Shown one piece after another: positions 35,917 through 61,181 of a DNA stretch of 64,000 nucleotides. The notes beneath the pieces are model-generated. The model had not been told where the DNA came from. It saw only the letters and a program-made list of their open reading frames with translations, and made no database searches. The stretch is from NCBI GenBank assembly GCA_964036295.1, contig OZ038466.1, positions 14,976,001-15,040,000 on the forward strand, given 5' to 3'. Each line of letters opens with the position of its first letter. Position 1 is the stretch's first letter. The stretch is from Plumapathes pennacea. Its lineage: Eukaryota; Cnidaria; Anthozoa; Antipatharia; Myriopathidae. A program made the translations under genes and the position numbers.

Positions 35917-35944
35917 GTTTTTAAATTGTTTTGAATTTAAAAAC
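35917..35944. terminator. Gene-end hairpin, 11-bp stem
   Basis: GTTTTTAAATT, loop GTTTTG, AATTTAAAAAC: perfect stem 30 bases after the TIR gene's stop. Confidence 0.8.
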
Positions 35945-35951
35945 AAAGAGT

Positions 35952-36003
35952 GCCATTGAAAAAAGAAGAGGCTTAAAAGGAAAGCCAGTGAAAGAGAAAC
36001 GTG
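35952..36003 (+). promoter_or_regulatory. TIR leader module, copy 2
   Basis: Near-exact repeat of 35516-35566, placed directly upstream of the ATG at 36004. Confidence 0.6.
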
Positions 36004-36393
36004 ATGAACACAGAATCAGAAAGAATGTTGTTGAATTTTGAGAAAAGTTTGAAATGGATGCAAGAAGAGTTGAAGAAAAGAAATCTTCCCTTGAAGTTGC
36101 ATTACGATTTTGTGTTTGATGGAGAAAAGGAAAGGAGGAGAGAGACGATGGAAGGATTGGAGGGGAGAGTGAAAGAGTTGGAAGAAGAAAATGAAGAGAT
36201 GAAGAAGTTGATTGAGGAGGAAGTTGAGGAATGGAGGATGTCGTTAGAGAAGTCGGAGAGAAGAGTGGACGAATTATCGATTATGTTGGATGAGCTTGGA
36301 GATGACTATCCTATCTCAGACTCTTTAGATGAGTCTGATTTGGAAGAAGGAGATGGAATGCCTTCAACGGATGAGGAGGAGGAAGAAGATTAA
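36004..36393 (+). CDS. Coiled-coil protein, 129 aa, left-arm family
   Basis: Starts MNTESERMLLNFEKSL. Residues 1-40 match the next gene (LLNFEKxxKxMQEELKKRxLP), so the two are paralogs. The middle is a long Glu/Lys coiled coil (~45-90); the C-terminus is very acidic (SDLEEGDGMPSTDEEEEED). No known domain. An acidic tail suggests binding to a basic partner, but this is inference. Its ATG coincides with the inner edge of the TIR. Confidence 0.7.
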   Translation: MNTESERMLLNFEKSLKWMQEELKKRNLPLKLHYDFVFDGEKERRRETMEGLEGRVKELEEENEEMKKLIEEEVEEWRMSLEKSERRVDELSIMLDELGDDYPISDSLDESDLEEGDGMPSTDEEEEED

Positions 36394-36411
36394 ACTTTTA
36401 TTTCTACATTG

Positions 36412-36438
36412 TTTTTAATTTAGAAATAATTTAAAAAG
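36412..36438. terminator. Gene-end hairpin (imperfect)
   Basis: TTTTTAATTT and AATTTAAAAA pair over seven bases plus a mismatch. It lies 20 bases after a stop codon. Confidence 0.5.
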
Positions 36439-36463
36439 AAGAAGAGAGGTGTTGAAGAAAGAC

Positions 36464-37030
36464 ATGAATTCTGAATCAGAGCAAATGTTGTTGAATTTTG
36501 AGAAAGTGATTAAAGGCATGCAAGAGGAGCTTAAGAAGCGACGGTTGCCAGTCACACTTCTCTTTGACTTTGTTTTTTGTGAAGAAGGTTTGAAAGGAGA
36601 TGAGACGATGAAAAGTTTAAGACAAGAGGTGATGAAGTTGAGGGAGATGGTGAAGGAAATGGAAGCGATGAAGAAAGAGTTGAGAGATTTGAGATGGAGT
36701 GGGGGTGGAGGTCTGCTTGAGATCATCAGAAGGAAGAGTTCAACGAATGAGAGGGAGTTGATGGAAGAGAAAGTGAATCGTTTGAAGATGGAGTTGAAGG
36801 AATCAGAAGAAACATGCAAAGTGTTTGAGGAAAGAATTATGAAGTTTGAAAAGTACAAAGAGAAATGTCAAGAGGCAGGTCAAAAGATGCTTGAGAAATT
36901 TGCAGTGGTGGAGGCTTGGGTGTGCAGGCAATGGGATGAGGGAAGAATGAGTCGAGAAATGTGGCATGCGTATTGCACATGTGATTATGCAGCGTATCGA
37001 TTGAGTTATTTTGATGAAGAGGATGAATGA
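36464..37030 (+). CDS. Coiled-coil protein, 188 aa, left-arm family
   Basis: ATG at 36464 (MNSESEQMLLNFEKVI) chosen over an upstream GTG because it aligns with the start of the paralog at 36004. Residues 1-40 are the family N-domain, ~50-150 coiled coil, and the last ~35 residues are less charged with aromatic and Cys residues (MWHAYCTCDYAAYRLSYFDEE). No known function. Confidence 0.72.
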   Translation: MNSESEQMLLNFEKVIKGMQEELKKRRLPVTLLFDFVFCEEGLKGDETMKSLRQEVMKLREMVKEMEAMKKELRDLRWSGGGGLLEIIRRKSSTNERELMEEKVNRLKMELKESEETCKVFEERIMKFEKYKEKCQEAGQKMLEKFAVVEAWVCRQWDEGRMSREMWHAYCTCDYAAYRLSYFDEEDE

Positions 37031-37464: not shown

Positions 37465-37757
37465 ATGAAAGACTTTTTGGATCGATTGAAACGTGAATTG
37501 GAAGATGCGGAAGAGACCGTGAAGTGTTTGAAGTCGAGACTCAAGTTTTGATGGAAGTGGAAGAGGAGTTTGAGTTGAGAAGTCGATTGGATGCCTGTGA
37601 AAGGGAGAATGAAGAGATAAAATTGGAATTGGATCATTTGAGATGGGAATGTTGTGACTTGGAAGAAAAAGTAAGAAAGTGTGAGATTGTGCGTGATCGA
37701 AAATCGGAAAAAATTGAGGAATTGGAAGAGGAATTGGAAGAGTTGAAGGGACGTTGA
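37465..37757 (+). CDS. Small coiled-coil ORF pair (28 + 68 aa)
   Basis: The ATG at 37465 gives a 28-codon frame (MKDFLDRLKRELEDAEETVK) whose TGA overlaps the ATG of the next frame at 37551 (MEVEEEFELRSRLDACEREN), ending at 37757. Both halves are coiled coil, so this is either one gene broken by a frameshift or a stop-start overlapping pair (TGATG). Followed by the longest hairpin of the element. Confidence 0.45.
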
Positions 37758-37763: not shown

Positions 37764-37799
37764 TTATTTTTAAATTTAAAGAAACAAATTTAAAAATAA
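37764..37799. terminator. Gene-end hairpin, 14-bp stem
   Basis: TTATTTTTAAATTT, loop AAAGAAAC, AAATTTAAAAATAA: perfect 14-bp stem between stop 37757 and ATG 37807. Confidence 0.85.
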
Positions 37800-38392: not shown

Positions 38393-38421
38393 CTTTTTAA
38401 ATTGTTTTAAAATTTAAAAAG
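38393..38421. terminator. Gene-end hairpin, 11-bp stem
   Basis: CTTTTTAAATT, loop GTTTTAA, AATTTAAAAAG, starting directly after the stop codon. Confidence 0.82.
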
Positions 38422-38441: not shown

Positions 38442-39071
38442 ATGACAAAAGCGATGACAACATTTCATTTTGGACCCATGCGAAGTGGGAAAACATGGGC
38501 TCTGATTGAAAAAGTACGACGAGAGGGTCGTGAGAATTGCTGTGTGATGAAACCCAGGTTTGAATGGGATTGGCAAGGGGAACAAATAGTGTCAAGAGGA
38601 CATCCCACGAAGTTGGAAGCAGATTTTTTATTGGATGGTGACAATGTTCATTTTTTAGAAATTCAACAAAAGATAGTGTGTGTAGATGAATGTCAATTTT
38701 TGACAGAGAAACAATGTGAAAAATTATTAAATTTGAAAGATCCAGTCAAAGAAGTGCATTTTTTTGGATTGTATTGGGGAAGACCCTTTGTTCGGTTTCC
38801 AGCATCGGTTCATCTTGTCAGTGAATGCAACGAGAGAAGAAGTTATGAATCCTTATGTGAATTTTGTCCACAAAAATCAAAATATTCATTTCAATTTGTA
38901 GAGTGTGAAGGGGTGGCTATTCCATTGTCTTGCGATCGAGGCATTATTCAAGGGCATGAGAATGCTTATTTTACAAGTTGTTGTGTGAAGTGTATTCAAG
39001 AATTAAAACGTGAAGTTCGTGGACTATCACGAAAATTTCAATCCAAAAGAAATAAAACTTCAATGATTTAA
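38442..39071 (+). CDS. Thymidine kinase (type II)
   Basis: 209 aa. P-loop GPMRSGKT at residues 11-18, Walker-B-like VDECQF at 81-86, a GLYWGRPFVRFP segment at the position of the family's 'GLd.dFr..pF', and a zinc site from C139/C142 and C180 or C181/C184, with an ENAYFTSCCVKC end like the family's 'e.Y...Cr.C'. It phosphorylates thymidine, supplying dTTP for replication in resting cells; common in poxviruses and other large DNA viruses but not part of the Polinton core set known to me. Intact, in the left non-structural block. ATG chosen is the first in frame after a purine-rich leader. Confidence 0.85.
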   Translation: MTKAMTTFHFGPMRSGKTWALIEKVRREGRENCCVMKPRFEWDWQGEQIVSRGHPTKLEADFLLDGDNVHFLEIQQKIVCVDECQFLTEKQCEKLLNLKDPVKEVHFFGLYWGRPFVRFPASVHLVSECNERRSYESLCEFCPQKSKYSFQFVECEGVAIPLSCDRGIIQGHENAYFTSCCVKCIQELKREVRGLSRKFQSKRNKTSMI

Positions 39072-40049: not shown

Positions 40050-40064
40050 AGAAAAGTCATAGAT

Positions 40065-40091
40065 TTTTGAAATTAGTTGAATTTCAAAAAC
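40065..40091. terminator. Gene-end hairpin with compensatory change
   Basis: TTTTTGAAATT, loop AGTTG, AATTTCAAAAA: the G in the left arm, relative to the usual TTTTTAAATT, is matched by C in the right arm, keeping an 11-bp stem. Confidence 0.82.
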
Positions 40092-41376: not shown

Positions 41377-41386
41377 TCACGTTTTT

Positions 41387-41422
41387 GTTTTTAAATTTAA
41401 CTTTAAAAAAAATTTTAAAAAC
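41387..41422. terminator. Gene-end hairpin (one bulge)
   Basis: GTTTTTAAATTT and AAATTTTAAAAAC pair with a one-base offset, ten bases after the stop at 41376. Confidence 0.65.
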
Positions 41423-41437
41423 ATACAAGTGAGAGGA

Positions 41438-42106
41438 ATGGAACAAAACGAAGTGATGGATCAATTAGCAGCGTTGGAAAAATTGCAAAGTCAATTTGCG
41501 GAAGACAGTGATGAACTCATGTATTATAAAATGGACTTGGCTGAGTGTCAACACAAATACGATGACTTTCAAAAAGATTTGGTTTCAAAAATCAAGAAAT
41601 ATAAATTGGATCCTCATTTGATGGAATGTCCAGAATGTTCCACAGTGAATTCATTTGAAACAGATGAAGAATTTTCTGTTTGTGTGGAATGTTGTTCTAT
41701 GACACCTTTGCGTTTGAGACGAGATCCACCCAATCCCATTGAAACGTATCAAGAGAAACGTCTGAAAACCTTGAAGAAGAAATTTGATCTTTTCCTGGAT
41801 CGAGTGTCTGTTCAAGAAAGACGATTTCTTTTGGAAGATTTTGTAGAAATTCAAACTCAAGTGATTCGACGAGGGGATAAAGGACCTAAAGATGTCATGA
41901 TTTTAATTTTTTCTGTGGTCAAGCATGGCAAAGACTTGAGTCTTGAAACCAGACAACATTTGAGATTGCCCAAGAATGATGTGGATATAAAGCAGGACTT
42001 GGTCACGTGCATGCGATTTGCAGATTCCAAAGGACAAGTGAACAAATCTCAAGTGATTGATTTGATCATGACTTTGAAACGTGAAAAGTTGGAACGACTC
42101 TTGTAA
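41438..42106 (+). CDS. Zinc-ribbon protein, possible viral late transcription factor
   Basis: ATG at 41438 (MEQNEVMDQLAALEK) is taken rather than an upstream one at 41348 because the upstream stretch overlaps the previous gene and crosses its hairpin. 222 aa: N-terminal coiled coil, zinc ribbon C64-x2-C67 ... C82-x2-C85 (MECPECSTV, VCVECCSMT), and a C-terminal helical domain. Ribbon plus helical domain is the plan of poxvirus VLTF3-like and TFIIB-like factors; the match is by layout only. Confidence 0.5.
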   Translation: MEQNEVMDQLAALEKLQSQFAEDSDELMYYKMDLAECQHKYDDFQKDLVSKIKKYKLDPHLMECPECSTVNSFETDEEFSVCVECCSMTPLRLRRDPPNPIETYQEKRLKTLKKKFDLFLDRVSVQERRFLLEDFVEIQTQVIRRGDKGPKDVMILIFSVVKHGKDLSLETRQHLRLPKNDVDIKQDLVTCMRFADSKGQVNKSQVIDLIMTLKREKLERLL

Positions 42107-42139
42107 AGTTTTTAAATTTTTATTTTAAATTTAAAAACT
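42107..42139. terminator. Convergent-junction hairpin, 13-bp stem
   Basis: AGTTTTTAAATTT, loop TTATTTT, AAATTTAAAAACT: perfect, between the last left-block gene and the converging integrase gene; by symmetry it could end transcripts from both sides. Confidence 0.85.
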
Positions 42140-42157: not shown

Positions 42158-43063
42158 TTACGAAACGATCCAATCACTGAGTTTGGATTGTTTAGAGACT
42201 TGAGGAATTGTCTTGGGGGTCTGTTTTTTGGTTTGATATCGCTTTCGTCCTTTTTCTTTCTCTTTTTCTTTCATTTGAAGACCTTTTTGAGCATCCAATC
42301 GTGTTCTTCGTTTGGTGGATTGAGAGTGTTTCAAAGTGACTTGTGACTGGACTTTTTGTAATTCTTGTTCATAAAAGGTTCCCGTCAAAGGATATCCCTT
42401 CAAGTCTTTCAAATGAAACACAGGAGGTTGACTCCATTGAATTCTTGAGATTTGAAATAGTTCTTGAGTCCAATTAGGAGTATACCCTTTGGAAAAACGC
42501 CATTTAATTTGTGGAATGCGAACATAATCTCCCACGTTCAATTTCAAGTCTTTATACGTGGGCATGCGTTGTGTCTTTAATTTGAGTTGGGTTTCATTGG
42601 ATTTTTTGGAAGCTTCCACAGGAGTCATCCCCAGAGTAGAATGCGTGGTGTGGTTGTACTTGTCCACCACTTGTTGAATGTCATCAATCCATCGATTCTT
42701 TTCTGGATCCATTTCTAAGACCATTTTGTTTTTGATGGTTCGTATCCATCGTTCAATGAGAGCTCCTTTGATTCCTGTGTGTGTGGTATACCATTGAAAA
42801 TGTTTTTGAATCTCTCTGTTTTTGAATTCAGCTCCTTCATCTGTCCATAATTTGTCAGGTTTTCGTCCAGAGGCTTTTATAACATGTTTCAAAGCTTTCA
42901 ACACTTGAGGACCTGTTTTGTCTTTGAGTGGCACGACCCAACCAAATCGAGAAAACACATCCATGATCATGAGAAGATATCGAAATCCATTGTTGTTGGA
43001 TGGACCAAAATCTTTCATGTCCGCCAAGTCAGCAGTCCAAATTTGATCCACACCTGTACTCAA
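42158..43063 (-). CDS. Polinton integrase (retroviral type)
   Basis: DDE core: first Asp in DQIWTADLADM, second in LWTDEGAEFKN, Glu in KGALIERWIRTIKNKM, with NGFRYLLMIMDVFSRFGWVV between. C-terminal SH3-like segment (LNVGDYVRIPQIKWRF, GTFYEQELQKV) and a basic tail. The second-Asp to Glu spacing is 28 residues, about six shorter than in relatives I recall. The frame's own first ATG-like start (GTG/ATG near MSTGVDQ) is just before the core; the usual N-terminal segment (ELHKP...) lies in the upstream PLA2 frame, -1 relative to this one. Performs insertion with 6-bp duplication. Confidence 0.85.
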   Translation of the reverse strand: MSTGVDQIWTADLADMKDFGPSNNNGFRYLLMIMDVFSRFGWVVPLKDKTGPQVLKALKHVIKASGRKPDKLWTDEGAEFKNREIQKHFQWYTTHTGIKGALIERWIRTIKNKMVLEMDPEKNRWIDDIQQVVDKYNHTTHSTLGMTPVEASKKSNETQLKLKTQRMPTYKDLKLNVGDYVRIPQIKWRFSKGYTPNWTQELFQISRIQWSQPPVFHLKDLKGYPLTGTFYEQELQKVQSQVTLKHSQSTKRRTRLDAQKGLQMKEKEKEKGRKRYQTKKQTPKTIPQVSKQSKLSDWIVS

Positions 43064-43560
43064 AATTTGACGACGCGGCGCGATTTTTTTTTTACTGGTT
43101 TATGAAGTTCAAGGGCCACCATTTTTTCTGCTGGAGTTAATCCCATGCCCAACTTTTGTTTCAAGTTAATGATATTTCTAGCAGCTGTATGTCCCCATTG
43201 TTTTTCCTTCCAGGGAATGACGTCCAAATCTCGAACCATTTTTCGATCAGCACGATTTTTACATTTGGTTTTGTCTTTTTGTTTCTTAAACTTTCGTTCA
43301 CAAATGGTGTAATCCACATCATGTTGTGCTGCCACCGCATCGGTTCGTCCAGTGGGTTTTTGGTGAAATTTTGTGATGTTTCCCTCCTCATCGTGTTCCA
43401 ATTGTTGTTCCAAGGGATTGTAAGGTCCTGTAAAACGATGTCCAGGAAGGGTGAATCCACGTTTGGGTCGTGGAAGTTTTCCAATGACAGAGTGAATATC
43501 CAAACCACCTCCTTTTTTATCGTAAATATTTCTCCATCCAATATCAATCATGGTTTCCAT
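43060..43560 (-). CDS. Phospholipase A2-like domain protein
   Basis: 166 aa. Calcium-loop region LPGHRFTGPYNPLEQQL (38-54), catalytic H80-D81 in AVAAQHDVDYTICE, and ADRKMVRD (~104-111): the arrangement of the parvovirus-type/Polinton PLA2. Such domains help virions leave endosomes in parvoviruses; in Polintons the role is inferred. After GMGLTPAEKM the frame runs into ALELHKPVKKK, which is the typical start of Polinton integrases, and stops just past a run of ten A. The integrase continues in the -1 frame, with four bases of overlap. Confidence 0.75.
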   Translation of the reverse strand: METMIDIGWRNIYDKKGGGLDIHSVIGKLPRPKRGFTLPGHRFTGPYNPLEQQLEHDEEGNITKFHQKPTGRTDAVAAQHDVDYTICERKFKKQKDKTKCKNRADRKMVRDLDVIPWKEKQWGHTAARNIINLKQKLGMGLTPAEKMVALELHKPVKKKSRRVVKF

Positions 43561-43576
43561 CTTGTTGAGGTTTATT

Positions 43577-43993
43577 TCATGTGGGACACTTTTTCTTTTT
43601 CTTTTTTCCAGTTAATTTTCCCATCACCCATTGACCACCTTTTTCTGCACCTTTCTTTGCAGCGAACTTGGCTCCAGATTTAAGTAGTTTTGGACCATAT
43701 CTTTTAGCACTTGATTTAGCAAATTTAAAAGCTTCATCTGCAAAACCTTCACCATGTTGTTGAGGTTGAACTCGTCTTAATCTGGGAGCTCTTCGAGACA
43801 TTGGAAGAGATTCTCCCGCAAAGAACGCCCCCTCTCCAGATTGTTGTGATTTGACAAATTGTGATTTTTTTCTTCCACAGGAGGCACACACAGCTGAAGC
43901 TCTTTTGCGACCATTTCTTGCAGTATGTAGTTGTCTTGTTCCTGGTTTATCATCTGTATATTTTTTCTCTGTGACGCAATAAAGACCACTCAT
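43577..43993 (-). CDS. Small zinc/basic virion protein, DUF5679-like
   Basis: 138 aa. N-terminus MSGLYCVTEKKYTDDK then ARNGRKRASAVCASCGRKKS resembles the short zinc-binding domain ('YCvkCk...kNGR....G.C..CG.k...F') of Polinton virion proteins; the second Cys of the first pair is not conserved. The C-terminus is an amphipathic basic helix (KSSAKRYGPKLLKSGAKFAA), as in membrane-active or core proteins. ACAATAAAAC precedes the ATG. Confidence 0.65.
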   Translation of the reverse strand: MSGLYCVTEKKYTDDKPGTRQLHTARNGRKRASAVCASCGRKKSQFVKSQQSGEGAFFAGESLPMSRRAPRLRRVQPQQHGEGFADEAFKFAKSSAKRYGPKLLKSGAKFAAKKGAEKGGQWVMGKLTGKKKKKKCPT

Positions 43994-44010
43994 GTTTTAT
44001 TGTATGTTTT

Positions 44011-44259
44011 TTACAACTTTCTCAAATATTTTGGAAGCGGTGTGTTATCAACAACTCCTTTGACAGCTTGTTTGGCTAACAATCGACCTGCGGTTCCAAA
44101 ACTAGGTGCAGGACCAGAAAGAAACATGGACATGACTTCTGCAATGTCATCGATTTTTCGACGTTTATATCTTCGTACAGCACCACCTGTTTTCTTTCTT
44201 TGTTGTGTCTTTGGTTTTGCCTTTGTTGATTTTCGTTTCTTTGCTTTTTGTTGAGTCAT
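44011..44259 (-). CDS. Highly basic core-like protein, 82 aa
   Basis: Lys/Arg-rich N-terminal half (MTQQKAKKRKSTKAKPKTQQ), then AVRRYKRRKIDDIAEVM and a short hydrophobic C-terminus ending PLPKYLRKL. Composition suggests DNA condensation, like adenovirus core proteins. Position between protease and zinc protein supports a virion role. Confidence 0.6.
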   Translation of the reverse strand: MTQQKAKKRKSTKAKPKTQQRKKTGGAVRRYKRRKIDDIAEVMSMFLSGPAPSFGTAGRLLAKQAVKGVVDNTPLPKYLRKL

Positions 44260-44264
44260 TTATC

Positions 44265-44678
44265 TTAAAGTGATTCAAAATAGTGTTGAATAAAGTCTTC
44301 GTTTTTTTCCAAGTGTTTTTCATCAAAGGGTTTCAATAACTGTTCATAACTTTGACCTTTTTGACGTTCATTGAGAAAGTAAAGACAATACCATCCACAA
44401 CGAACACTGGTCAAAGTTTGAAGTTGAAAAGGATTCATTCGTCCCTGTTTTCCCATGGACATTTCTTTCCATTCTTCAGGTGGTGGTACTCCATACGAGT
44501 CAAAATAATCAAACTTATCACGACGTGTTTTCCAACAACACACCCAATGAGTACCAGGACCAGCGTCATCGTCCATGTTGATGATGCAAGGAGAATGATG
44601 GTCACGAATGATATGCTCTCTGGAAAAAATACCTTTGAGTGGAATGTTTAACTCACGACACCATGCTTCAAGATCCAT
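44265..44678 (-). CDS. Adenain-like maturation cysteine protease
   Basis: 137 aa from ATG at 44678 (MDLEAWCRELNIPLKGIFSR). Catalytic His44 in GTHWVCCW, Asp60 in KFDYFDSYG, Cys98 in SVRCGWYCLYFL, with FQLQ before it providing the likely oxyanion Gln. This is the compact C5-type protease of adenoviruses, Polintons and virophages that cleaves capsid precursors. A perfect GATCTTTAAAGATC palindrome lies upstream (44692-44705); the AATAAA-like box of the other virion genes is absent. Confidence 0.88.
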   Translation of the reverse strand: MDLEAWCRELNIPLKGIFSREHIIRDHHSPCIINMDDDAGPGTHWVCCWKTRRDKFDYFDSYGVPPPEEWKEMSMGKQGRMNPFQLQTLTSVRCGWYCLYFLNERQKGQSYEQLLKPFDEKHLEKNEDFIQHYFESL

Positions 44679-44704
44679 TGTGGACAAGGCTTGATCTTTA
44701 AAGA

Positions 44705-45295: not shown

Positions 45296-45323
45296 TTTTT
45301 TTATTTAGAGGTTAAACTTTTTT

Positions 45324-46562: not shown

Positions 46563-46615
46563 TTATTTTAAATGAAATTTCCATCAATAAAAAGTTTTTT
46601 TAACGATCCAAATTC

Positions 46616-47935: not shown

Positions 47936-47936
47936 T

Positions 47937-50074: not shown

Positions 50075-50107
50075 TTTTATTTTACACGAAATAAAAATAG
50101 ACTCATC
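50075..50107. promoter_or_regulatory. Divergent promoter between virion protein and ATPase
   Basis: 33 bp serve two start codons pointing apart. It carries GTAAAATAAAA toward the minus gene and CGAAATAAAAATAG toward the plus gene. Because no gene ends here, the AATAAA boxes cannot be polyadenylation signals of a preceding gene, which supports a promoter role for this motif. Confidence 0.65.
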
Positions 50108-50821: not shown

Positions 50822-50826
50822 TAAAC

Positions 50827-52692
50827 ATGGGATATCAAGATGGAAGTGATTCTTTGCTTGACGACAACACAAGAAATAATAAAAATAAACGCTCACCCAC
50901 GACTGGAGGAACACGAGGTCCAAGAGGTCCACAAGGTAACACAGGCCCCAGGGGTCCTGAAGGTCCATTGGGCCCACCAGGACCCAAAGGGAACCCAGGC
51001 CCTAAAGGAGATCAAGGCAACATGGGCCCCAAAGGCAATACAGGACCCAAAGGATCCAAAGGCGAACCAGGAATTCAAGGAGCCGTAGGACCGCGAGGAG
51101 CAACAGGACCTCGAGGATCGAAAGGAGACACAGGCAATGAAGGACCTATGGGCCTCAAAGGACCTCAAGGAAACAAAGGGGATGTGGGACCTCGAGGCAA
51201 TCAAGGACCTGCTGGTTCCGATGGTGTCACAGAACAAAAAGTGAAAGATTTAATTGAAAAATGGGCACCAGGATCCACCCAAAACACATTTGATTACATC
51301 ATGAGAGTTGCTGATTGGATGGCCATTACTTCTATTTCCAATAAAGATGTCAACTTTCACATTGCCAAAGAGGTGGCGGCCACCATTTCCTCTGCACCCA
51401 TTCAAATTTGGAAATGGAATATGACGCGACATACAGATATTTTGACAGGTGAATTTTATTATTGGACTGAAATTTCTGTGGATTTGCCCATGTCCAAAGT
51501 TCCCAATGACACGTATTCTTTGATGTGTCGATTTCTCATGGGAATAGGAAATTATGAAAGAAATGACAATAAAACATACGTGGAATTAGGACAAAAAACA
51601 GATGTCACCCATCATTCTGACGATCAAGGAGCTCTTGTTTGGGGTCGTGATTCACTTTTAGCCCACATGGTTTTCACGAAAAGCATCAACACCAATTCTG
51701 ACGGGTCTGTGCCACGACTTAGTCTTTCATTTCGTGTCACTCTGTCAGGTGGAGCCATCCCTTTGGTGCTTCCTGTCAGAGCTTTGCTATGGGGATCCCG
51801 AGGAAAACAGGCTGTTCCCACTTTTATTCATGATAAACCTTTTGTGGATACCCCCCAAGAGATTTCATTTAACAAAAATATTAATGTTCACACTCATCAA
51901 ATTCTCAAAACAACCGATGCATCCCTGGATTGGTCGCAACAACCACCCAGCAATCTCAACGAACAAGTCCCCAACTTGGAGATGATTCAAGATTATCTGA
52001 GTGGCTCTTGGTATCGTCAACATGTGTTACTCAACCAAACCTTGGACATGAAATCTCCTCACGACCTTCTTCGCGACACCGAAGTCATTGATTGGGATCA
52101 ACACCAAAATATGGATGCCCTGAATCGAAAAATTTTTAACTTTGAAATGATTCAAGATTATTTGAATGGAAGACTGAGACATCGTCTTTTGTCTTTTTGG
52201 GGTCATTTTAAAAGTTCCAACACCATTGTCTCTGATGATTCCATGCATTATTTTCGTAATTCTGTCAGTGCATTTCATCAAAATGGACGTAATCCTTTTT
52301 GGATTACCTCTCATAACGCGGGTGCCATCAGACTGGACAGGAACAAAACAAGGATTGATTTGAGTTATTATGAATTTGATTATCCACACACATCGTTATG
52401 TCGTGTAGAATTTTATTTGGTGCCTGGAAAACCAGGAGACAGATCTCCAAGAACCCAAAAAATCACCTGTGAAGTGGTGATGGAAGTCGATCCTGACACA
52501 TCTGCCAACAATAGAGTCATGTTGAGTCATGCCATTGTGGTAGACGATGGAGCACAACCCAGTGAACGCTCTGATATGATCTGGCTAAAATCAGGGTGTT
52601 CTTTTTTGATTCGTACCTTACCTGAAAAAATCAATGGACACTTTCTCAAATATGAATTGGTCATGAAACTTGAAATTTTGCAACATCAATAA
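50827..52692 (+). CDS. Collagen-like fibre protein, 621 aa
   Basis: N-terminus [13 protein letters not shown], then 36 uninterrupted Gly-X-Y triplets (residues ~28-136; e.g. [19 protein letters not shown]), a short linker ([12 protein letters not shown]), a beta-rich head domain, a shaft with two related units ([11 protein letters not shown] and [11 protein letters not shown]), and a second head-like domain. Collagen plus shaft plus globular ends is expected of a trimeric receptor-binding fibre. It starts five bases after the ATPase stop, sharing the plus-strand late block. AATAAAC precedes the ATG. Confidence 0.75.
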
Positions 52693-52704
52693 ATAAAAAC
52701 AACC

Positions 52705-54711
52705 ATGGGCTATGGAGATGGAAGTGATACGCATATTGGAGGGTCAGGTGATGACTCAGGCGCACCTGATATTGGAAAAACAGTAAGAGGACCAAGAGGA
52801 CTCCCTGGAAGAGCACCCACACAAAATGAAATTAAATTAGCGGTCAAAGAATTAGCAGATAAAGATTTTCTTCTTCAACATGAGTTTGACACCATCAAGA
52901 TGAAAAATTTATTGGATTTCATGAATGTCGACACAGTTCTTGACTCCATTTCATCACCCACGTCACTTTTAAATAATCCCCCTGTGTTCGTGCAATGGAA
53001 TGCCTCCACCAACAAACTCAACAAACGAGCCCTGCAATTAACCGCCAACGAAATTCAAAAAGATGGAAAACATACGTTTCAATACACCTTTTCCATTCCA
53101 ACCAATGAACAATGTAAATTCACTGGAATCATGTCCATCGTCCTCAATGTGTATTTCAGCGATCTGAAAGACCATTTTGATTCTAGTGTTGAATTACAAT
53201 CTTCACCATCTCTTGTGAAACAACCTGGTGATAGTCTTCACGTGAGCGAAGATCAAAATAAAATCGTTAAAAAAATTGTTGTGAAAAAAACAAGTGAGGA
53301 AGATACATTTTTATTTCGTGTTTTTGCATCGTTTGACACATCTCAATCCAACCCACTCCCTTGTTACATTCAAATGTACGGATTCGAAGGTCGTTACGAT
53401 CAAGACGATGGCATTCCTCAAGAAATGGACGATCAACTTTTCTCCATCAACCACGTCACGATGCCAAGAACGTCGTTTCATATGGCTGGTCATTCCATCC
53501 GAGGCATTGGCCCCAACATGGAAGATGTGGTGGTGGGTTCAGCCATGAAACAATATATTTTCGATTCCCTGTACCTTGGAATGAATGATCAACAAAACGT
53601 TCTTCCACTTCAATTAACACTTCCAAAGGGAACATTAGGCACTATTAATATTTTGACTGAAATTTCATTCACGATGAAAGACCCCACGTTAAAAAATCTC
53701 TTTGAAAACAACACCATGTCACCCTTCAAGTTGACCTTTCATAATGATGACCCAAATAAAATCAAAAGCATCAAACTTAACGCAGATAAACCTTACACTC
53801 TGACTTTACTTGAGACTCCAATCGTACCCATTGCTGGGTTCACAAAAATCATCTTCTCAGCAAGGGGAAAAAATAAACAGCTTGAAACTGTTGAGTATGT
53901 GAAGAGAATTCATTCCTGGGGTCTTGGAGATGTTGAAGAACAAATCACTTTTAATGAAAGCATGACATCTGGAAGTATTTTCAATGTTAAGTTTACCACA
54001 ATAAGAAACCTTTCAATTGATGTTGTGTATTCATTTGAGCTCAAATTACAAAGCTACCCGGGTGACCTAGTCACGAAAGAACTCTTGACTCATAGCATCA
54101 AAACCGCTATTGATCCACTTGTGAAAGATATCAACAATCACGTTCAGGTTCAAAAAGAGGTTGACATGAACACAAAAAACATTACAAACCTTGGAAGTGA
54201 AAAAATCAATCTTTACAAATGTGTGGAATACACTACAAAGCGTTCCATTCGTCTCGACAAAAACGTCAATTCATGCCCTTTCATCATAAGAATACCAAAA
54301 GGAACACGATTTCGCAACTCTCCCATCACCATAAACACGTGCCTCTTATCACAACGACACATTAATCGTTTCAACATCAACACTTTAAACTTTTTTCCAT
54401 TTACCACTCCCCTATCATCACCTACATCTCCAACGTCAACAATCCTATTCAAACTCCATTGGAATGAAGTATATTCATTAAAACTAACCAATTACACAAC
54501 AGGTATCTCTCCTGGAGTCACTCTCACAACAACATTCCCGGTAGGTGTCACATTCAACACAGACATGAAACTTGGAGACATTGCAGAATTTTCACCCTCA
54601 CGTATGCTCAACGGAAATATTGAAAACGTTTTCACTTCATCCAATTATGCACTCAATCTTACTGTTGACTTTGACTTTCACTTTGAACTTTCAATAAAAA
54701 ACAAAGAATAA
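52705..54711 (+). CDS. Second fibre-like protein, 668 aa
   Basis: Starts MGYGDGSDTHIGGSGDDSG, sharing MGYxDGSD with the collagen-like fibre, and keeps a vestigial collagen stretch (GPRGLPG). The rest is beta-rich with a shaft-like turn (VDMNTKNITNLGSEKINLY) before a C-terminal domain. The shared N-terminus probably docks both proteins to the same capsid site. Intact. Receptor binding is inferred. Confidence 0.65.
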   Translation: MGYGDGSDTHIGGSGDDSGAPDIGKTVRGPRGLPGRAPTQNEIKLAVKELADKDFLLQHEFDTIKMKNLLDFMNVDTVLDSISSPTSLLNNPPVFVQWNASTNKLNKRALQLTANEIQKDGKHTFQYTFSIPTNEQCKFTGIMSIVLNVYFSDLKDHFDSSVELQSSPSLVKQPGDSLHVSEDQNKIVKKIVVKKTSEEDTFLFRVFASFDTSQSNPLPCYIQMYGFEGRYDQDDGIPQEMDDQLFSINHVTMPRTSFHMAGHSIRGIGPNMEDVVVGSAMKQYIFDSLYLGMNDQQNVLPLQLTLPKGTLGTINILTEISFTMKDPTLKNLFENNTMSPFKLTFHNDDPNKIKSIKLNADKPYTLTLLETPIVPIAGFTKIIFSARGKNKQLETVEYVKRIHSWGLGDVEEQITFNESMTSGSIFNVKFTTIRNLSIDVVYSFELKLQSYPGDLVTKELLTHSIKTAIDPLVKDINNHVQVQKEVDMNTKNITNLGSEKINLYKCVEYTTKRSIRLDKNVNSCPFIIRIPKGTRFRNSPITINTCLLSQRHINRFNINTLNFFPFTTPLSSPTSPTSTILFKLHWNEVYSLKLTNYTTGISPGVTLTTTFPVGVTFNTDMKLGDIAEFSPSRMLNGNIENVFTSSNYALNLTVDFDFHFELSIKNKE

Positions 54712-54716
54712 AATAA

Positions 54717-55163
54717 ATGGCACGACCTTACAGACGTGATAAACATTTGGCTTACAACAACGAAAGCACCCATGGTATGGAGATCAATAAAGATCGTGAT
54801 TGGGTTGCCCTCAAAAGACGCATCACATACTTGGGAGAACCCGCACATGAATGGGATGCCACCACCAAATTTTACGTCGATTCTCAAGTTCAAAATTGTC
54901 TCAACCTGGATCCCCCCAAAAATAAGTTCGACGTGGGTGGTAATCCTCTCACAGGGCTTCCCAGTCCCCTCGTGGACACAGACGCTGTTTCACTCAAATA
55001 TTTTCAAGATTTTGCACTCACTCAAGACACTCTCAACAAAACATTAGATGATTTTGCCACCATCAAATATGTGGATGATGAACTTCAAAAATTAGCTGCC
55101 TCCGATCAAAAAGATCAATCCCAACAAAATCCACAAGTCGATCTCAGTCTCTTTTACACCTGA
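54717..55163 (+). CDS. Fibre shaft protein, 148 aa (N-terminal part of a split gene)
   Basis: MARPYRRDKHLAYNNESTHG, then a tail-fibre-type repeat (FDVGGNPLTGLPSPLVDTDA), which resembles the phage-like '...ItgLp.P..dtDAv...Yvd' unit. The frame stops at 55163, and the next frame (to 55695) continues as plausible fibre without its own ATG, so the two are probably one gene with a break near 55150. Confidence 0.6.
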   Translation: MARPYRRDKHLAYNNESTHGMEINKDRDWVALKRRITYLGEPAHEWDATTKFYVDSQVQNCLNLDPPKNKFDVGGNPLTGLPSPLVDTDAVSLKYFQDFALTQDTLNKTLDDFATIKYVDDELQKLAASDQKDQSQQNPQVDLSLFYT

Positions 55164-55695
55164 TGAAGTAGACATTCATCTTTTGAGTTTGAAAGACGAC
55201 CTGGAGACTGAAGACAATGCACTAGACACAAAAATCAATCAAATCACATCTCAATTGGATGCCAAGATCACCCAGTCCAAACAAGTGGACCATTTCATTG
55301 GAGAATGTCATCACAACAATGAAAAAGATGTGGAATTTCCCAGACCCAATGATTCTCCCAAACCCATCATGGCAGGACACTTTTCTGTCTCTTCTGATCG
55401 AAAAACACTCACCATTCATAATGCTGGTGTGTGGGAAATCACTTTTCTCGATCAAATCAATGAACGGCAATTTAGACGTGCGGAAATGATCGTCACCCAT
55501 GCAGACGTCACCACCAATAAAAATTCATTCTTTGAAAAAATTTACAAGACGGAAACATGGGAAACCTTCTATTTTTCAAGAATCATTCCTTTGAAAGCCA
55601 ATGCCACCATTCAAATCCATTTTGAAGGAAAAAAAAGCACTGATGGATTCGATGGAACGGATTATTCCAAAATTATTATTAAACGTTACTTGTGA
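55150..55695 (+). pseudogene. Fibre head, continuation in another frame
   Basis: Open from about 55096 to 55695 but with no ATG near its start. Sequence: coiled coil (LKDDLETEDNALDTKINQIT), then a beta-rich domain (AGHFSVSSDRKTLTIHNAGV and an Ig/TNF-like strand pattern). The +1 frame relation to 54717-55163 points to a one-base change or recoding. Not joined here. Confidence 0.55.
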
Positions 55696-55716
55696 AGTTT
55701 CACCTCAAATAAAACA

Positions 55717-56235
55717 ATGACCAAAGATCCAAACATCACACATCCTCGTGAATTCAACAATTTCTCCAAAGACTTGGACCCTGAAACCAAACGCAAATTG
55801 ATCAGCATGTATGGAAAGATGCACAAAGGGTGGTGGACCGCCATGAAAGCTCGAAAAGATTACAAGAAAAAACAAATGGCCCATTCCATTTTTGGATTGA
55901 TCGTGGGCGCTGCAGGCACAGGAGCCACCCTTCAATTGGGTCCTCTGGGAACACCCATCTTGGCAGTGGCTTTGGGCATTGGTGTCTTGTTTGCCAAATG
56001 CAATTGGGGTGAAAAAATCAAAGCCACTCAAAAGGCGGAAAAAGATTATCAAAATAAAATGTTAGAAATTAAAAAATTGGGACAAACTGGAGAACGATTG
56101 AATGAATCTGTCTTCTTTGCTGTCATGGAAGAATTTGAAAAGTTGGAAACAGATCGTCTGCCTGATTTGAGCAAGAAAATCAAACAATACAACAAAAAGT
56201 TTGTCATGAATCCACCACCACCTATGGAACTCTGA
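55717..56235 (+). CDS. Membrane protein with glycine-rich hydrophobic hairpin, 172 aa
   Basis: Residues ~52-94 (MAHSIFGLIVGAAGTGATLQ... TPILAVALGIGVLF) form two adjacent hydrophobic helices; the rest is charged helices, ending PPPPMEL. Same plan as the broken gene at 7800-8465 in element 1. Last gene of the fibre block. Possible virion membrane, egress or lysis role. AAATAAAAC precedes the ATG. Confidence 0.6.
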   Translation: MTKDPNITHPREFNNFSKDLDPETKRKLISMYGKMHKGWWTAMKARKDYKKKQMAHSIFGLIVGAAGTGATLQLGPLGTPILAVALGIGVLFAKCNWGEKIKATQKAEKDYQNKMLEIKKLGQTGERLNESVFFAVMEEFEKLETDRLPDLSKKIKQYNKKFVMNPPPPMEL

Positions 56236-56264
56236 ATTTTGTTTTTATTCATCAAAAACAAAAT
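56236..56264. terminator. Convergent-junction hairpin, 11-bp stem
   Basis: ATTTTGTTTTT, loop ATTCATC, AAAAACAAAAT: perfect stem immediately after the 172-aa gene and before the convergent PolB tail. Sequence differs from the AAATTT-type hairpins, but position and pairing are the same. Confidence 0.82.
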
Positions 56265-56564: not shown

Positions 56565-59500
56565 TTAACCCTTTTTTGGTTTTTTATCAACGCCTTTAGC
56601 TGTCACGGATTCTTTTTCAGACTCAAGAACAACACAGTATTTTTTGGCACATAATCCAACAAATTTCACAATAGGATCTTGTGGATACTCATTCTTCATT
56701 TTTCCCACAACCCCTTCATTCTCATCAGAATAATAAGGATCCATTTTGTCCAAATTGGAACAATCCATGTATTCCTTCAATTCTTCCTTGGTAAAATAAT
56801 CCAACACGTTTCCTTCTTTCTTAAATGCCAAATACAAAGAATCAGTGTCTGTTCCACACAATCGAATCTTGTCTCCAAACTTTCGTTTCAAAAAATAATA
56901 AAACCGGTACAAAATTAACTTGGAAATCTCCAAAATGATCGCTCCAATGTAAATGGGTTTATTAAACACTTGACTTGCTTTCTTCATGTGAACCATGGCC
57001 AACTTCTGGGTCAAAGGATTCGTTCTTAAATAACCATTTTGACGTGTCAATTCCAAATGCTTCTCTGAATCAGACACCAACTTTGAATTGGAATATTTTC
57101 GAACATTCTCACACGTTTTTCCATAGGGTGCATTCACAGACAACTTATAAAAATTGGATAAATTAATATCATTGTCCCTCTTGGCAATCTTCCTCTTGGC
57201 AATAGACCGTGACGAATACTTTTGAAAAATAGGTTCCATCTTGAACTTTCGACCTCTTTTGATTGTGTCAATCTTAACACCCAACTCTTCATAAAATTTC
57301 AACAAACGAAAATAACAAATATAACTTTCACGTCTTTCCAAGTGACACACCAACTTTTGATTGCATCCATCGGGTGGAATCAAAGGTTCGGGTGCTGGTG
57401 GAAAATCGTTAAAAAAGTCTTCAAGTTTCTGGGGAAAGGATAAGTCCACTTCCAAGGAACACCCCCACGTTTCTCGTCCCTCGGGTTGATCACAATAACG
57501 TCTCCAATCGTTTAATTCCTCAGGCGTCATTTCCTGTCCATCCTCCACTGGAAGAGATTGTTGCATACAAAAACCACCATACGATGAATTCACATCAAAA
57601 CACACAATGGATTTCACTCCTTTCTCACCCACCACAGCTTTCCTCAACGATATTTGAGCCACGCCACCACGTTTATGATTTTCCCAAAAATCCAAAGACG
57701 TTTGATCTTGAATGTATCCCAACTCTTGACCTGGTTTCATCATCAACAACGTGGCATCCCAAAACAATCCTGGACCTGTCACGTAATGAGCTGGATCCAA
57801 TTTAAAATGTTCTTTCGCCATATTTCGAAATTCTTCAAACACAGACGCTAATCCAATCACATCCACTTTCAAATACGTCATCAAATACTCTCCCATATTT
57901 CGACATTGGAGAACTCGTTCAAATTTCAAGCATGATTCCACATAACTTTCCAATGACACAGGTTCTCCCCCTAATTTGGACTCAAATTGTTCATGATCAG
58001 GAAAATTCACCTCATTTAATTTCTCCAAAGAATCCAACCATTCATAAGGAAACACTTGTTTCTCTAAAAAGAATCTAACATCTTTTCCAAAATGTTTTTT
58101 CATCAACTTGGGAATTTTCTTCACAACATCACTGGGTTTCTTTCGACCTGTCAATGCCAACAAATTATCTTCTAACTTACCACCTTGAAATTTCAACGTA
58201 TCACCGAATACTATTTTTACCATGTCATCAGATTTCAACTCCACTTTGTACGTCACATTTTTATATTGTTGATCATTCGTGGGAAGACAATTCAACTCCA
58301 ATGCACCTCTTTCAGCCAGTCGTCTCACGATGGGATGTGAATCATAACCAGCACCATTATGTGCATACACCACCACTTCCTTCTTCACTCGACGATTCAA
58401 ATTACATGACGCGTGAGCAGCTCCCATGAACTTGTTCGTAAAATGACAATGATCACGCACTTTCTTTTTTCCTTTGGCTTTCTTGGTTTCTCCTTTGTTA
58501 AACGCCCTCCATTCTTCCTCTGTGAACACCACAAACGCTTTCCCACAAATCCAGTATTTCTTTTGACTTTGAAATTGTTGTTCCTCTACATCACTCAAAT
58601 CTGGATCTGGATAATCATGTGACTTTTGAAAAAAATCCTCCACAACGTCTTCAATGGCTTCAAAAAATAAATCCAGTAACTCACCCTCGTTTTGATTCAT
58701 GGTTCTCAACGCTGATCGATACTCATACGTTATTCCTTGAATTCGTGACACGGGTAACAATCCCCATGCACACACCTCATGCTCTGTCTCAATGATCGTT
58801 TGATCACTTGATCTCAAATCACATTTTGTTTGCAAACACTCAAAATCATAATACATCACCAACGGAAGATCATGCTTTCGACTCCAATTCATAAACTTTA
58901 ATTTTTGTCGTGGATTCTTAAACCTTGAAATCGTTGTGTCGTTTTTTGGACACGTCGTCAAATGATCGTCCAGCAAAGATTGTGTTCCAAAATACGAAAA
59001 ATCTCGTTTACAAATATATTTCTTGTCATTATTTTTTGATAATTGAGATCCCACATACCTTGACATGTCCCACACCAACACAGCATGTTTTTGATCACCT
59101 TGTCTCAACACATGTATCACCACAACATCCTCATTGGTCCACTTTCGTGATGACGTTTCTTCAAAATGATCTGATAAAATCATGACACTTCCTTGTCTTG
59201 GTTCATTACACATTCTTTGACATTCACATGCTGTCGAACACTCACAAGAACACTCACATTTGCAGTCACACCAACAATGTTTCTTCACGTCATACCCCAT
59301 GAAACAATCACACTCTTTTCCACAGTGACATCGACACTCTCGTCGATGAGGCTCCTCTCCTGACGCAATGAACGAAGTCATCACAATGGGTGGAATGGAA
59401 GGATTTTGTCGTCGCAACCTCTCCACATCTTCTTTGCTCATGGGAAACTTCACTCCATTCAAATCCCATTGACCAACCAACTCTCGCATCCTTCTTGTCA

Positions 59501-60506
59501 CTCGTTCAGCCTTGGAATCTTGTGTCTTCCAAATTCCACGACCATCTTTTTCTGCCAACTTGTGTTGAGCCAAACACCACAACACACATTTTTCATCTTT
59601 CGACTTCATATTCACACAAGCTCTCTTTCTCATCAACACTTTAGGCGATCTCAACCAACTTCCCGTCTTCGTTTTGGTCATGTTTACACGAGTCACTTGA
59701 AACTCAAATTCTTTAAAATAATTGATTTTAAAACCCGATCCTGACACAGAAGCACCTTCTAATTCAGGATTAAACGCAAACAACGATCCACTCAACTCCT
59801 TTTGAATTTCAGATAACACAGGCCCTAATTCTTTCACATTTCGAACATTGTATTGCTTTGTATAATGTTTGTAATCAAAAAACACTGATTTTCCTCCTCC
59901 TTCTTTGGATTCTTTTTCATAATTCACCACCAAGTCCACTCTCAGCTTAATTGAATTCCCTGATGAAAAAAAGTCTTCCCTTTTGATCACACTTCGCAAT
60001 TTAGGTTTCAAGGACAATAATACCTCTGCAGGATTCTTTTGTTGATCCTTTTCTGGTAATTTCACTGAAAAATTAAACGCTAATAACTCCTCTCCATTGG
60101 CCTTGAATCTTTTTTCCTTTGACGTTGCAGGACCTAATTTCAACTTCTTTCCTTTCATGCTCTTCAACGTTTTTTCAATCGCTTCTTGCTTCATTGCTTT
60201 CTCAATGGATGTGGGTTTCTTGGCCTTTTTCGTTCTTCTTTCCACCACTTTTGGTTTTTCAATGGGTTTGACCTTCTTCGTCTTTCTTTTCACCACCACT
60301 TTTGGTTTTTCAATGGTCTTAGCCTTTTCCAATTCACTCCTCAATCTTTTTATTTCTTCCTTGTCCTTTTTCTCTCGACTTCTGTATAATTTCTCGCGTT
60401 CTTTTAACTTCTCTTCCATTCTCCTTTCCCTTCGACTCCCTTCTTCCATCACCCGACTCATTGTTTCAATTGCTTTCAAATATCGTTCTTCTTTTGATTC
60501 TTTCAT
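56565..60506 (-). CDS. Protein-primed DNA polymerase B, 1313 aa
   Basis: Domains in order: charged coiled coil (1-70); duplicated IEKPKVVVKRKTKK-type basic repeat (~68-100); an unassigned N-terminal domain; a striking Cys cluster (~389-430, about 18 Cys, e.g. CDCKCECSCECSTACECQRM); exonuclease (YYDFECLQ at ~552, VRDHCHFTNKFMGAAHASCN, HNGAGYDSH, YLKVDVIGLASVFEEF); polymerase motif A (FDVNSSYGGFCM at ~970), B (KLSVNAPYGKTCENVR) and C (CGTDTDSLYLAF at ~1220). Replicates the element from protein-primed termini, as in adenovirus-type systems. Longer than usual because of the N-terminal additions. Frame ends early at KKPKKG; the tail is at 56281-56544. Confidence 0.88.
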   Translation of the reverse strand: MKESKEERYLKAIETMSRVMEEGSRRERRMEEKLKEREKLYRSREKKDKEEIKRLRSELEKAKTIEKPKVVVKRKTKKVKPIEKPKVVERRTKKAKKPTSIEKAMKQEAIEKTLKSMKGKKLKLGPATSKEKRFKANGEELLAFNFSVKLPEKDQQKNPAEVLLSLKPKLRSVIKREDFFSSGNSIKLRVDLVVNYEKESKEGGGKSVFFDYKHYTKQYNVRNVKELGPVLSEIQKELSGSLFAFNPELEGASVSGSGFKINYFKEFEFQVTRVNMTKTKTGSWLRSPKVLMRKRACVNMKSKDEKCVLWCLAQHKLAEKDGRGIWKTQDSKAERVTRRMRELVGQWDLNGVKFPMSKEDVERLRRQNPSIPPIVMTSFIASGEEPHRRECRCHCGKECDCFMGYDVKKHCWCDCKCECSCECSTACECQRMCNEPRQGSVMILSDHFEETSSRKWTNEDVVVIHVLRQGDQKHAVLVWDMSRYVGSQLSKNNDKKYICKRDFSYFGTQSLLDDHLTTCPKNDTTISRFKNPRQKLKFMNWSRKHDLPLVMYYDFECLQTKCDLRSSDQTIIETEHEVCAWGLLPVSRIQGITYEYRSALRTMNQNEGELLDLFFEAIEDVVEDFFQKSHDYPDPDLSDVEEQQFQSQKKYWICGKAFVVFTEEEWRAFNKGETKKAKGKKKVRDHCHFTNKFMGAAHASCNLNRRVKKEVVVYAHNGAGYDSHPIVRRLAERGALELNCLPTNDQQYKNVTYKVELKSDDMVKIVFGDTLKFQGGKLEDNLLALTGRKKPSDVVKKIPKLMKKHFGKDVRFFLEKQVFPYEWLDSLEKLNEVNFPDHEQFESKLGGEPVSLESYVESCLKFERVLQCRNMGEYLMTYLKVDVIGLASVFEEFRNMAKEHFKLDPAHYVTGPGLFWDATLLMMKPGQELGYIQDQTSLDFWENHKRGGVAQISLRKAVVGEKGVKSIVCFDVNSSYGGFCMQQSLPVEDGQEMTPEELNDWRRYCDQPEGRETWGCSLEVDLSFPQKLEDFFNDFPPAPEPLIPPDGCNQKLVCHLERRESYICYFRLLKFYEELGVKIDTIKRGRKFKMEPIFQKYSSRSIAKRKIAKRDNDINLSNFYKLSVNAPYGKTCENVRKYSNSKLVSDSEKHLELTRQNGYLRTNPLTQKLAMVHMKKASQVFNKPIYIGAIILEISKLILYRFYYFLKRKFGDKIRLCGTDTDSLYLAFKKEGNVLDYFTKEELKEYMDCSNLDKMDPYYSDENEGVVGKMKNEYPQDPIVKFVGLCAKKYCVVLESEKESVTAKGVDKKPKKG

Positions 60507-60559
60507 CGTTCTTTATTTTGCTGGCTTTTCTCTTAAATCACTTTTCAATGGCATTCTTT

Positions 60560-60587
60560 GTTTTTAAATCCAAAACAATTTAAAAAC
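60560..60587. terminator. Gene-end hairpin, 10-bp stem
   Basis: GTTTTTAAAT, loop CCAAAACA, ATTTAAAAAC, between the 165-aa gene's end (60597) and PolB's start (60506), on the minus-strand block. Confidence 0.8.
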
Positions 60588-60596
60588 TTAACGCCT

Positions 60597-61094
60597 TTAA
60601 TAATACATAAATGGCTCATGACGACGACTCAAGACCTTTAATAACTCATACACCGCCACATTTATCCATAGCACGCTCATTGGCATACTCCCCGGAAACC
60701 CTGGTATGGCATCCTTAACGTCACCATCCCCTTTATGTTTCCACGCCGTCTCAAAATCTTTTTCAATGGACACACTACACTTTGACACTTGTTGAAATCG
60801 ATCCAGAACCTCTCTCCACCAACCCTCCCTCCAATCATTCATTAATCCATCACATAACTCATTTACACACATCACCACCTCGTGTGGAACCTTTATCGTT
60901 TCATTCTCAATTGCTCTCATCATTGACTTAAACTTATAATCTAATGTCAACGCAGTCACGTCAACCCTTGCAATATCTCTGAATCTTTTCATAAGTTTTA
61001 ATCTCTCTTTGAAAAAATTATCCATCTTTCTCTTCATTACCAATTTATAAGTCGCTTCGTCAACAACAAGTGTCTCTTCATCGTATTCATTCAT
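60597..61094 (-). CDS. Unrecognised protein, 165 aa
   Basis: ATG at 61094 (MNEYDEETLVVDEATYKLVM) begins exactly where the right TIR ends, so the TIR supplies its leader. Helical; VVMCVNELCDGLMNDWREGW and a C-terminus MPMSVLWINVAVYELLKVLS. No family recognised. Occupies the place taken by the coiled-coil gene (36004) at the other end. Confidence 0.6.
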   Translation of the reverse strand: MNEYDEETLVVDEATYKLVMKRKMDNFFKERLKLMKRFRDIARVDVTALTLDYKFKSMMRAIENETIKVPHEVVMCVNELCDGLMNDWREGWWREVLDRFQQVSKCSVSIEKDFETAWKHKGDGDVKDAIPGFPGSMPMSVLWINVAVYELLKVLSRRHEPFMYY

Positions 61095-61153
61095 CACGTT
61101 TCTCTTTCACTGGCTTTCCTTTTAAGCCTCTTCTTTTTTCAATGGCACTCTTT

Positions 61154-61181
61154 GTTTTTAAATTCAAAACAATTTAAAAAC
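61154..61181. terminator. Gene-end hairpin in right TIR
   Basis: GTTTTTAAATT, loop CAAAAC, AATTTAAAAAC: mirror of 35917-35944. Confidence 0.8.

Follow-up and report, generated by a model that had tools for sequence, protein, structure and literature searches.

The 64,000-nucleotide stretch of the Plumapathes pennacea genome analyzed here (hereafter the window, which lies on contig C5 of a 290-Mb genome in 24 contigs) contains a mobile element, element 2 (E2), in which stop codons are often followed by short AT-rich inverted repeats, and this raises the question of whether such hairpins mark where its transcripts end. Its terminal inverted repeats (TIRs), together with an rve integrase, a DNA polymerase B and an A32-type ATPase, identify element 2 as a Polinton. 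Polintons are regarded as a link between virophages, giant viruses and the linear plasmids of the cytoplasm. We consider it probable, at roughly 70%, that the hairpins are signals fixing the 3' ends of the element's transcripts, comparable to the hairpin rule that giant viruses and Sputnik follow.

Hairpins past the stop codons of element 2

An earlier annotation of the window (the original prediction) had listed ten hairpins following stop codons in element 2. All ten are present, eight of them as perfect stems of 10-14 bp with loops of 5-8 nt. On the plus strand these are found at 35917-35944 (11 bp, 6-nt loop; 29 nt past the stop of the gene at 35567-35887), 37764-37799 (14 bp, 8-nt loop; 6 nt past the stop at 37757), 38393-38421 (11 bp, 7-nt loop; immediately past the stop at 38392) and 40064-40090 (11 bp including a G:C pair, 5-nt loop), and on the minus strand at 60560-60587 (10 bp, 8-nt loop; 9 nt past the stop at 60597) and 61154-61181, the sequence of which is the same as that of 35917-35944. 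Both convergent junctions carry a hairpin, as had been claimed: that at 42107-42139 (13 bp) begins immediately past the plus-strand stop at 42106 and lies 18 nt past the minus-strand stop at 42158, and that at 56236-56264 pairs ATTTTGTTTTT with AAAAACAAAAT over 11 bp. The other two hairpins, both on the plus strand, exist in a form different from that described. The one placed at 36412-36438 is better drawn at 36398-36429, 4 nt past the stop, with 13 positions and one mismatch (the same mismatch occurs in the related element E4, introduced below), and the one placed at 41387-41422 spans 41386-41423, its 12-nt loop being closed by a stem of 13 positions of which one is mismatched. Nor do the ten amount to ten separate cases, since 35917 and 61154 are one TIR sequence and the 60560 hairpin lies within a 72-nt, 93% copy of the TIR stretch around them, leaving about eight independent hairpins.

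The letters of the half-sites vary from one hairpin to another (GTTTTTAAATT, TTTTTTGAAAT, ATTTTGTTTTT, TTATTTCTACATT and TATGTTAAAATA), as does the length of the loop (3-12 nt), and the 5' arms are T-rich and the 3' arms A-rich. The predicted RNA folding energies of eight hairpins are modest, at -4.6 to -8.3 kcal/mol at 37 C and -9.1 to -13.9 kcal/mol at 15 C. Gene-end stems start between -7 and +29 nt relative to the stop codon.

We scored stems in 60-nt flanks as matches minus twice the mismatches, with G:U counted as a mismatch and loops of 3-12 nt allowed; the threshold of 10 was set after viewing the window and applied unchanged to the related elements afterwards. In element 2, 13 of 33 downstream flanks reached this threshold, compared with a mean of 0.21 and a maximum of 3 in 300 dinucleotide-preserving shuffles, and a repeat with 200 further shuffles gave a mean of 0.22 and again a maximum of 3. 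These 13 flanks correspond to 10 gene-end places, as both convergent hairpins were counted for each flanking gene, the TIR sequence was counted twice and a palindrome at 46554 was counted once. Of the 33 upstream flanks, 6 scored 10 or more: four contain hairpins shared with the end of the preceding tandem gene, and two contain the palindrome of the divergent junction.

The packed late blocks of element 2, the late genes of which lie within 42158-56235, contain no gene-end hairpins. The claim that hairpins are absent between the packed virion genes nearly holds, the exception being the 46554-46580 palindrome (minus strand; 27 nt, 12 bp, 3-nt loop), which lies between two virion genes, overlaps the ATG at 46562 and is probably start-linked. 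We treat it as such because its stem and loop are invariant, being letter-identical in element 2 and its three relatives, and because the ATG is inside the 3' arm on the gene strand. A genome-wide search allowing up to two mismatches found it at four places in the 290 Mb, all exact (loci L031, L032, L033 and L034), and the proteins adjoining it are 33-96% identical among the four elements.

Kept pairing in three related elements

Three further elements in the same genome, E3, E4 and E5, provided a comparison. E3 lies on contig C5, with stems 41-49 kb ahead of the window start, and E4 on contig C7; a search with the 27-nt palindrome of 46554 led to E5, a diverged and frameshifted fourth element on contig C4. 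Identities of matching proteins to those of element 2 are about 50-100% for E3, 29-94% for E4 and 27-69% for E5. Exact genome-wide searches, the counts of which are lower bounds, placed the commonest stem at at least eight sites (three each in element 2 and E3, and two in E4), the ATTTTGTTTTT stem of 56236 at at least three (one each in E2, E3 and E4) and a third stem class at at least two (in E3 and E4), while a control search with reversed patterns found none in the 290 Mb. In the host genome searched, these three exact stem classes were found only within these elements.

Gene ends with a stem numbered 8 of 28 in E3 (shuffle mean 0.155, maximum 2), 9 of 25 in E4 (mean 0.19, maximum 2) and 3 of 11 in E5 (mean 0.14, maximum 2), with 200 shuffles each. 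In these counts convergent hairpins were entered for both genes, one of the nine in E4 is that element's version of the start-linked palindrome, and the gene lists were drawn from orthology and open reading frame (ORF) maps, leaving out genes that were cut by the edges of the pieces or unrecognized. The control that had been proposed for the gene-end flanks places the stems above shuffled sequence in element 2 and its relatives alike. Pooled over E2-E5, stems are present at 33 of 97 gene ends. At convergent junctions of the four elements, six of seven stems score at least 10; the seventh, in E5, scores 9 with one broken pair and is apparently a decayed form. Only one of four divergent junctions, that of element 2, has a palindrome, the others (E3-E5) scoring 6, 7 and 6. 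Stop-linked positions, counts above shuffles and the convergent junctions thus all tie the stems to gene ends, as the original prediction had proposed.

It had also proposed that sequence varies while pairing is kept, and this holds across the three relatives, in which stems stay as loops or letters change. At the 42107 convergent junction the stem is AGTTTTTAAATTT in both E2 and E3 and one pair shorter in E4, with loops ttatttt, ttgattc and gaacaa, and at the 56236 junction the ATTTTGTTTTT stem is identical in E2, E3 and E4 around loops attcatc, tcact and ctttaatc. The end of the 40924 gene, where the 41386-41423 hairpin lies, has a stem in all four elements, and there E5 and E3 differ at 4 of 12 pairs, each time on both sides. 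At the convergent end of the 41438 gene, two-sided changes separate E2 from E5 at 5 of 11 positions, with one broken pair. One two-sided, pair-keeping change was seen between E2 and E3 at the end of the 37551 gene, where the stem was trimmed for comparison, and at the end of the 38117 gene (hairpin 38393-38421) the two elements have different paired stems with three two-sided differences. Stems with other letters also occur at single ends. E5 has one past the thymidine kinase gene, where E2 and E4 have none, and another past the fibre gene, where E2, E3 and E4 have none; E4 has one past the ortholog of the 40123 gene, where E2 has none. Near-copies of hairpins are found inside one element as well, E3 having the loop ccaaaca twice and tttttt twice. 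In these alignments pairing is maintained, whether by paired changes or by replacement of hairpins.

Probable transcript 3'-end signals and competing explanations

The stems are located where transcription units end, namely after early-type genes in both arms and at the two convergent junctions (early and late classes were assigned by position and orthology, not expression). Under the 3'-end signal that we favor, the late blocks would run out at these two junctions, with the hairpin there closing the transcription unit. The transcript would fold into the hairpin, so that folded RNA rather than the DNA palindrome acts, and would be cut or ended there and then probably polyadenylated. The hairpin could be read by a factor of the host, by a helper virus or by a protein of the element that went unrecognized; a helper of the kind on which Sputnik depends is conceivable, but nothing in the analysis of element 2 supports one.

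Comparable hairpins have been described elsewhere. The Mimivirus rule is described as stringent, with nearly all genes obeying it, unlike the roughly one third of gene ends with a stem in E2-E5. According to the portions of the reports available, Mimivirus and Megavirus, Pithovirus and the Marseilleviridae have an AT-rich hairpin past the stop codon in which pairing matters over sequence and the direction of the next gene is irrelevant (PMC4402537, PMC5413956, PMC8557863); mimiviruses encode both an RNase III that cleaves within the hairpin and a poly(A) polymerase that lengthens the resulting end (PMC4402537), and the Marseilleviridae encode an RNase III homologue and have one mapped 3' end (PMC5413956). 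The stems of E2-E5 resemble these in being AT-rich, beyond chance, linked to stops regardless of downstream orientation and kept in pairing; they differ in that no cutting or tailing enzyme was recognized among the scanned gene models of element 2, and in that 3' ends were mapped in those viruses, whereas here they are predicted from sequence. Among small elements of giant viruses, extracts of the literature report a hairpin signal at 16 genes of Sputnik (PMC6723459) and terminator hairpins flanking the genes of transpovirons (PMC7031253), which element 2 resembles in the position of the signal. Unlike these elements, which are taken to use mimivirus helper machinery, element 2 has no known helper and has early and late start motifs of its own.

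The linear cytoplasmic pGKL plasmids of yeast, or virus-like elements (VLEs), offer a third comparison. The sections of that report at hand describe stem-loops near stop codons (median 26 nt, -7.5 kcal/mol), tied to 3' ends by mutation and rescue, the ends being T-rich and without poly(A), and a plasmid-encoded RNA polymerase (PMC6211774). Element 2 likewise has stem-loops near stops, but by eye no T-run follows seven of its eight independent stems (that at 36398 is followed by three Ts), and a Pfam scan, which took in 31 of its 33 gene models (leaving out 37551-37757 and the ATPase gene), recognized no RNA polymerase.

In the Polinton, virophage/Mavirus and adintovirus literature, no report of gene-end hairpins in Polintons was found among the matches listed, and the accessible part of a Medusavirus study that lists hairpin-bearing viruses does not name Polintons among them (PMC8557863). 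As far as the excerpts of these reports go, mRNA-end hairpins are shown or inferred in virophages, giant viruses and linear plasmids alike. With paired hairpins persisting at the gene ends of a Polinton family, it becomes testable whether this mode of 3'-end formation is an ancestral trait, was acquired from a helper virus or arose anew, and 3' ends can be sought at precisely defined sites.

Several observations weigh against a role of the hairpins in fixing 3' ends. The Pfam scan of element 2 recognized no RNase III, poly(A) polymerase or capping enzyme, and none of these, nor an RNA polymerase, was recognized in 12 scanned ORFs of the relatives, among which there was one weak, below-cut-off nucleotidyltransferase-like match (DUF2204) in E4. 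Stems are lacking at 64 of the 97 gene ends, and the hairpins are therefore not a rule for all genes. Of the likeness to giant viruses that the original prediction drew, linkage to stops and kept pairing stand, while the failure to recognize cutting and tailing enzymes and the proportion of ends count against it. Hairpin ends are richer in AT than other ends (81% versus 67% over 40 nt), although the shuffles preserve composition, and a stem scoring 10 lies within a coding region of E3 (L017:6110-6135). The comparison of pairs has weaknesses of its own: stem registers were set by hand; of the seven ends compared, three (36004, 39111 and 55717) showed no two-sided change, nor did the 41438 end among E2, E3 and E4; and E2 and E3 do not strictly correspond at the 38117 end, because thymidine kinase had no match in the E3 pieces. 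Since some hairpins within one element copy one another, some of the apparently compensatory differences may be replacements of whole hairpins. Finally, the RNA and DNA readings are not separated by these data, because the aligned stems showed no G:U pair and the score treats G:U as a mismatch.

In a competing explanation the palindromes act as DNA and, where units end, offer symmetric sites to a dimeric terminator, insulator or transcription factor. In its favor, the aligned stems are near-perfect Watson-Crick palindromes in which G:U was not seen, and symmetric sites would suit convergent junctions; however, a dimer site should hold the letters of its half-sites, and these range from GTTTTTAAATT to TATGTTAAAATA around loops of different lengths, so that we regard this explanation as unlikely. 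We also find it improbable that the arms are a linear RNA polymerase II poly(A) signal read by host machinery, in which U-rich upstream and A-rich downstream elements are complementary by coincidence. The T-rich 5' arms and A-rich 3' arms fit such a signal, and short inverted repeats in yeast were correlated with the polyadenylation signal in the part of that study available (PMC6420913), but dinucleotide shuffles of the same flanks lack such stems, pairing survives two-sided differences, and AATAAA between the stop and +60 is scarcer at hairpin ends (6 of 33) than at other ends (28 of 64), a descriptive count because the motif was picked after viewing the sequences. It is very improbable that the palindromes serve the gene that follows, as promoter or leader elements. 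Many stems do lie 6-72 nt ahead of the next ATG in tandem genes, AATTTAAAAAC precedes several early ATGs and the palindromes at 46554 and 50073 look start-linked; but the stems at convergent junctions, where no gene starts, and the scarcity of palindromes at divergent ones speak against a promoter as the main role of the tandem hairpins.

Start motifs, gene content and neighboring features

Two motifs precede the genes of these elements, and their counts are descriptive, both having been picked after viewing the sequences. YTTAARRG occurs within 50 nt upstream of the ATG in 13 of 49 early genes, often at -27 to -34, and in none of 48 late genes, while AATAAA occurs within 20 nt upstream in 30 of 48 late (virion) genes, often at -6 to -13, and in 8 of 49 early genes, compared with 1.6-1.8% of random 20-nt windows of element 2. 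Where early genes follow one another in tandem, the 3' arm AATTTAAAAAC of a gene-end hairpin is in several cases positioned at -24 to -34 of the next ATG, and this arm, or part of it in the commonest stem, may double as the TATA-like box of the next early gene. At the divergent junction of element 2, a palindrome at 50073-50098 consists of two back-to-back AATAAA boxes between the starts at 50072 (minus strand) and 50108 (plus strand). AATAAA recurs at the divergent junctions of E3-E5, with no clear box on the minus-strand side in E4, and the palindrome does not. This palindrome, too, looks start-linked.

AATAAA as the poly(A) signal of the packed late genes is weakened by its closeness to late ATGs and because it also stands at divergent junctions, where no gene ends; it is instead a candidate late start motif. 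We read the arrangement as TATA-like starts for early genes, AATAAA-linked starts for late genes and hairpins closing the units. More broadly, and with rather less than even confidence, we suggest that this Polinton lineage may have its own punctuation, in which early genes are preceded at about 30 nt by a TATA-like box and late genes at 6-13 nt by AATAAA, and in which hairpins replace the poly(A) signal where units end and are read by an unrecognized factor. In that case the hairpin rule seen in giant viruses and virophages would also reach, and perhaps descend from, Polintons of a nuclear genome without a known giant-virus helper.

On the DNA compared here, the hairpin trait belongs to a single Polinton family of a single genome. 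A distant Polinton-like metagenome contig (L005), the single useful contig from DNA polymerase B and ATPase searches of viral contigs, limits its generality, as none of nine gene ends reached the threshold within 60 nt (best score 9). It does have two stems that touch ATGs: one of 11 bp at the tandem junction 1916-1943, which starts 37 nt past a stop and runs into the following ATG, and one of 12 bp that fills its divergent junction (7773-7799). This contig repeats a motif of 16-31 nt (TATAGC..GCGTATA, ACACTCCGTTATA) past several stops, at 1888, 2325, 4227-4320 and 12754-12850, which is possibly a different gene-end mark. Another contig from the ATPase search (L006; 61% GC, 24% identity) was not used, and scans of viral contigs with exact stems and a 21-nt motif returned three contigs, none matching element-2 proteins, with two of the matches inside ORFs.

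The TIRs of element 2, at 35422-36008 and 61090-61676 (587 nt each), are 100% complementary, and this identity suggests a recent insertion; the left copy contains a gene together with its gene-end hairpin. Between them, element 2 encodes a thymidine kinase (38442-39071, plus strand; PF00265), the rve integrase (42158-43018, minus; PF00665), the A32-type packaging ATPase that sets the divergent junction (50108-50821, plus; PF04665, borne by its database matches), a collagen-repeat fibre protein (50827-52692, plus; PF01391) and DNA polymerase B (56565-60506, minus; PF03175), the core of which is at most 37% identical to the best 120 database proteins listed, several of them from Porites corals. 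A PLA2-like domain was also recognized by Pfam. Among the scanned gene models of element 2 there was no Pfam match to a capsid protein or maturation protease; two paralogous capsid candidates have 412 and 439 amino acids, and the longer has no clear match among solved structures.

A gene at 41438-42106 (plus strand), adjoining the convergent hairpin and kept in E3, E4 and E5, encodes a protein of 222 amino acids that may contain a TFIIB-like zinc ribbon, the matches being weak and below cut-off. It had no homologs at an E value of 1e-3, and a single-sequence structure model was poor (mean predicted local distance difference test score, pLDDT, 42.7). We regard it as a candidate transcription factor; the idea that it is a late factor was set aside, given the weak zinc-ribbon matches, the lack of homologs and the poor model. 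In E3, a ribonucleotide reductase large-chain domain is encoded at L018:7290-8756 (PF02867, E value 4.6e-163), and E2, E4 and E5 carry thymidine kinase, both being nucleotide-supply genes in Polintons.

A decayed second element, element 1, occupies 5867-18844 of the window, with 311-nt TIRs (98%). At a laxer threshold of 9, stems were counted in 2 of 12 flanks downstream of its genes and in as many of the 12 upstream (shuffle means 0.07 and 0.145, maxima 2 and 3). Its perfect hairpins at 7709-7734 and 9842-9872, the arms of which contain TTTCGTAT, stand immediately ahead of ATGs at compact tandem junctions. Outside both elements, a histone 3' untranslated region stem-loop (RF00032) lies at 27406-27448 on the minus strand.

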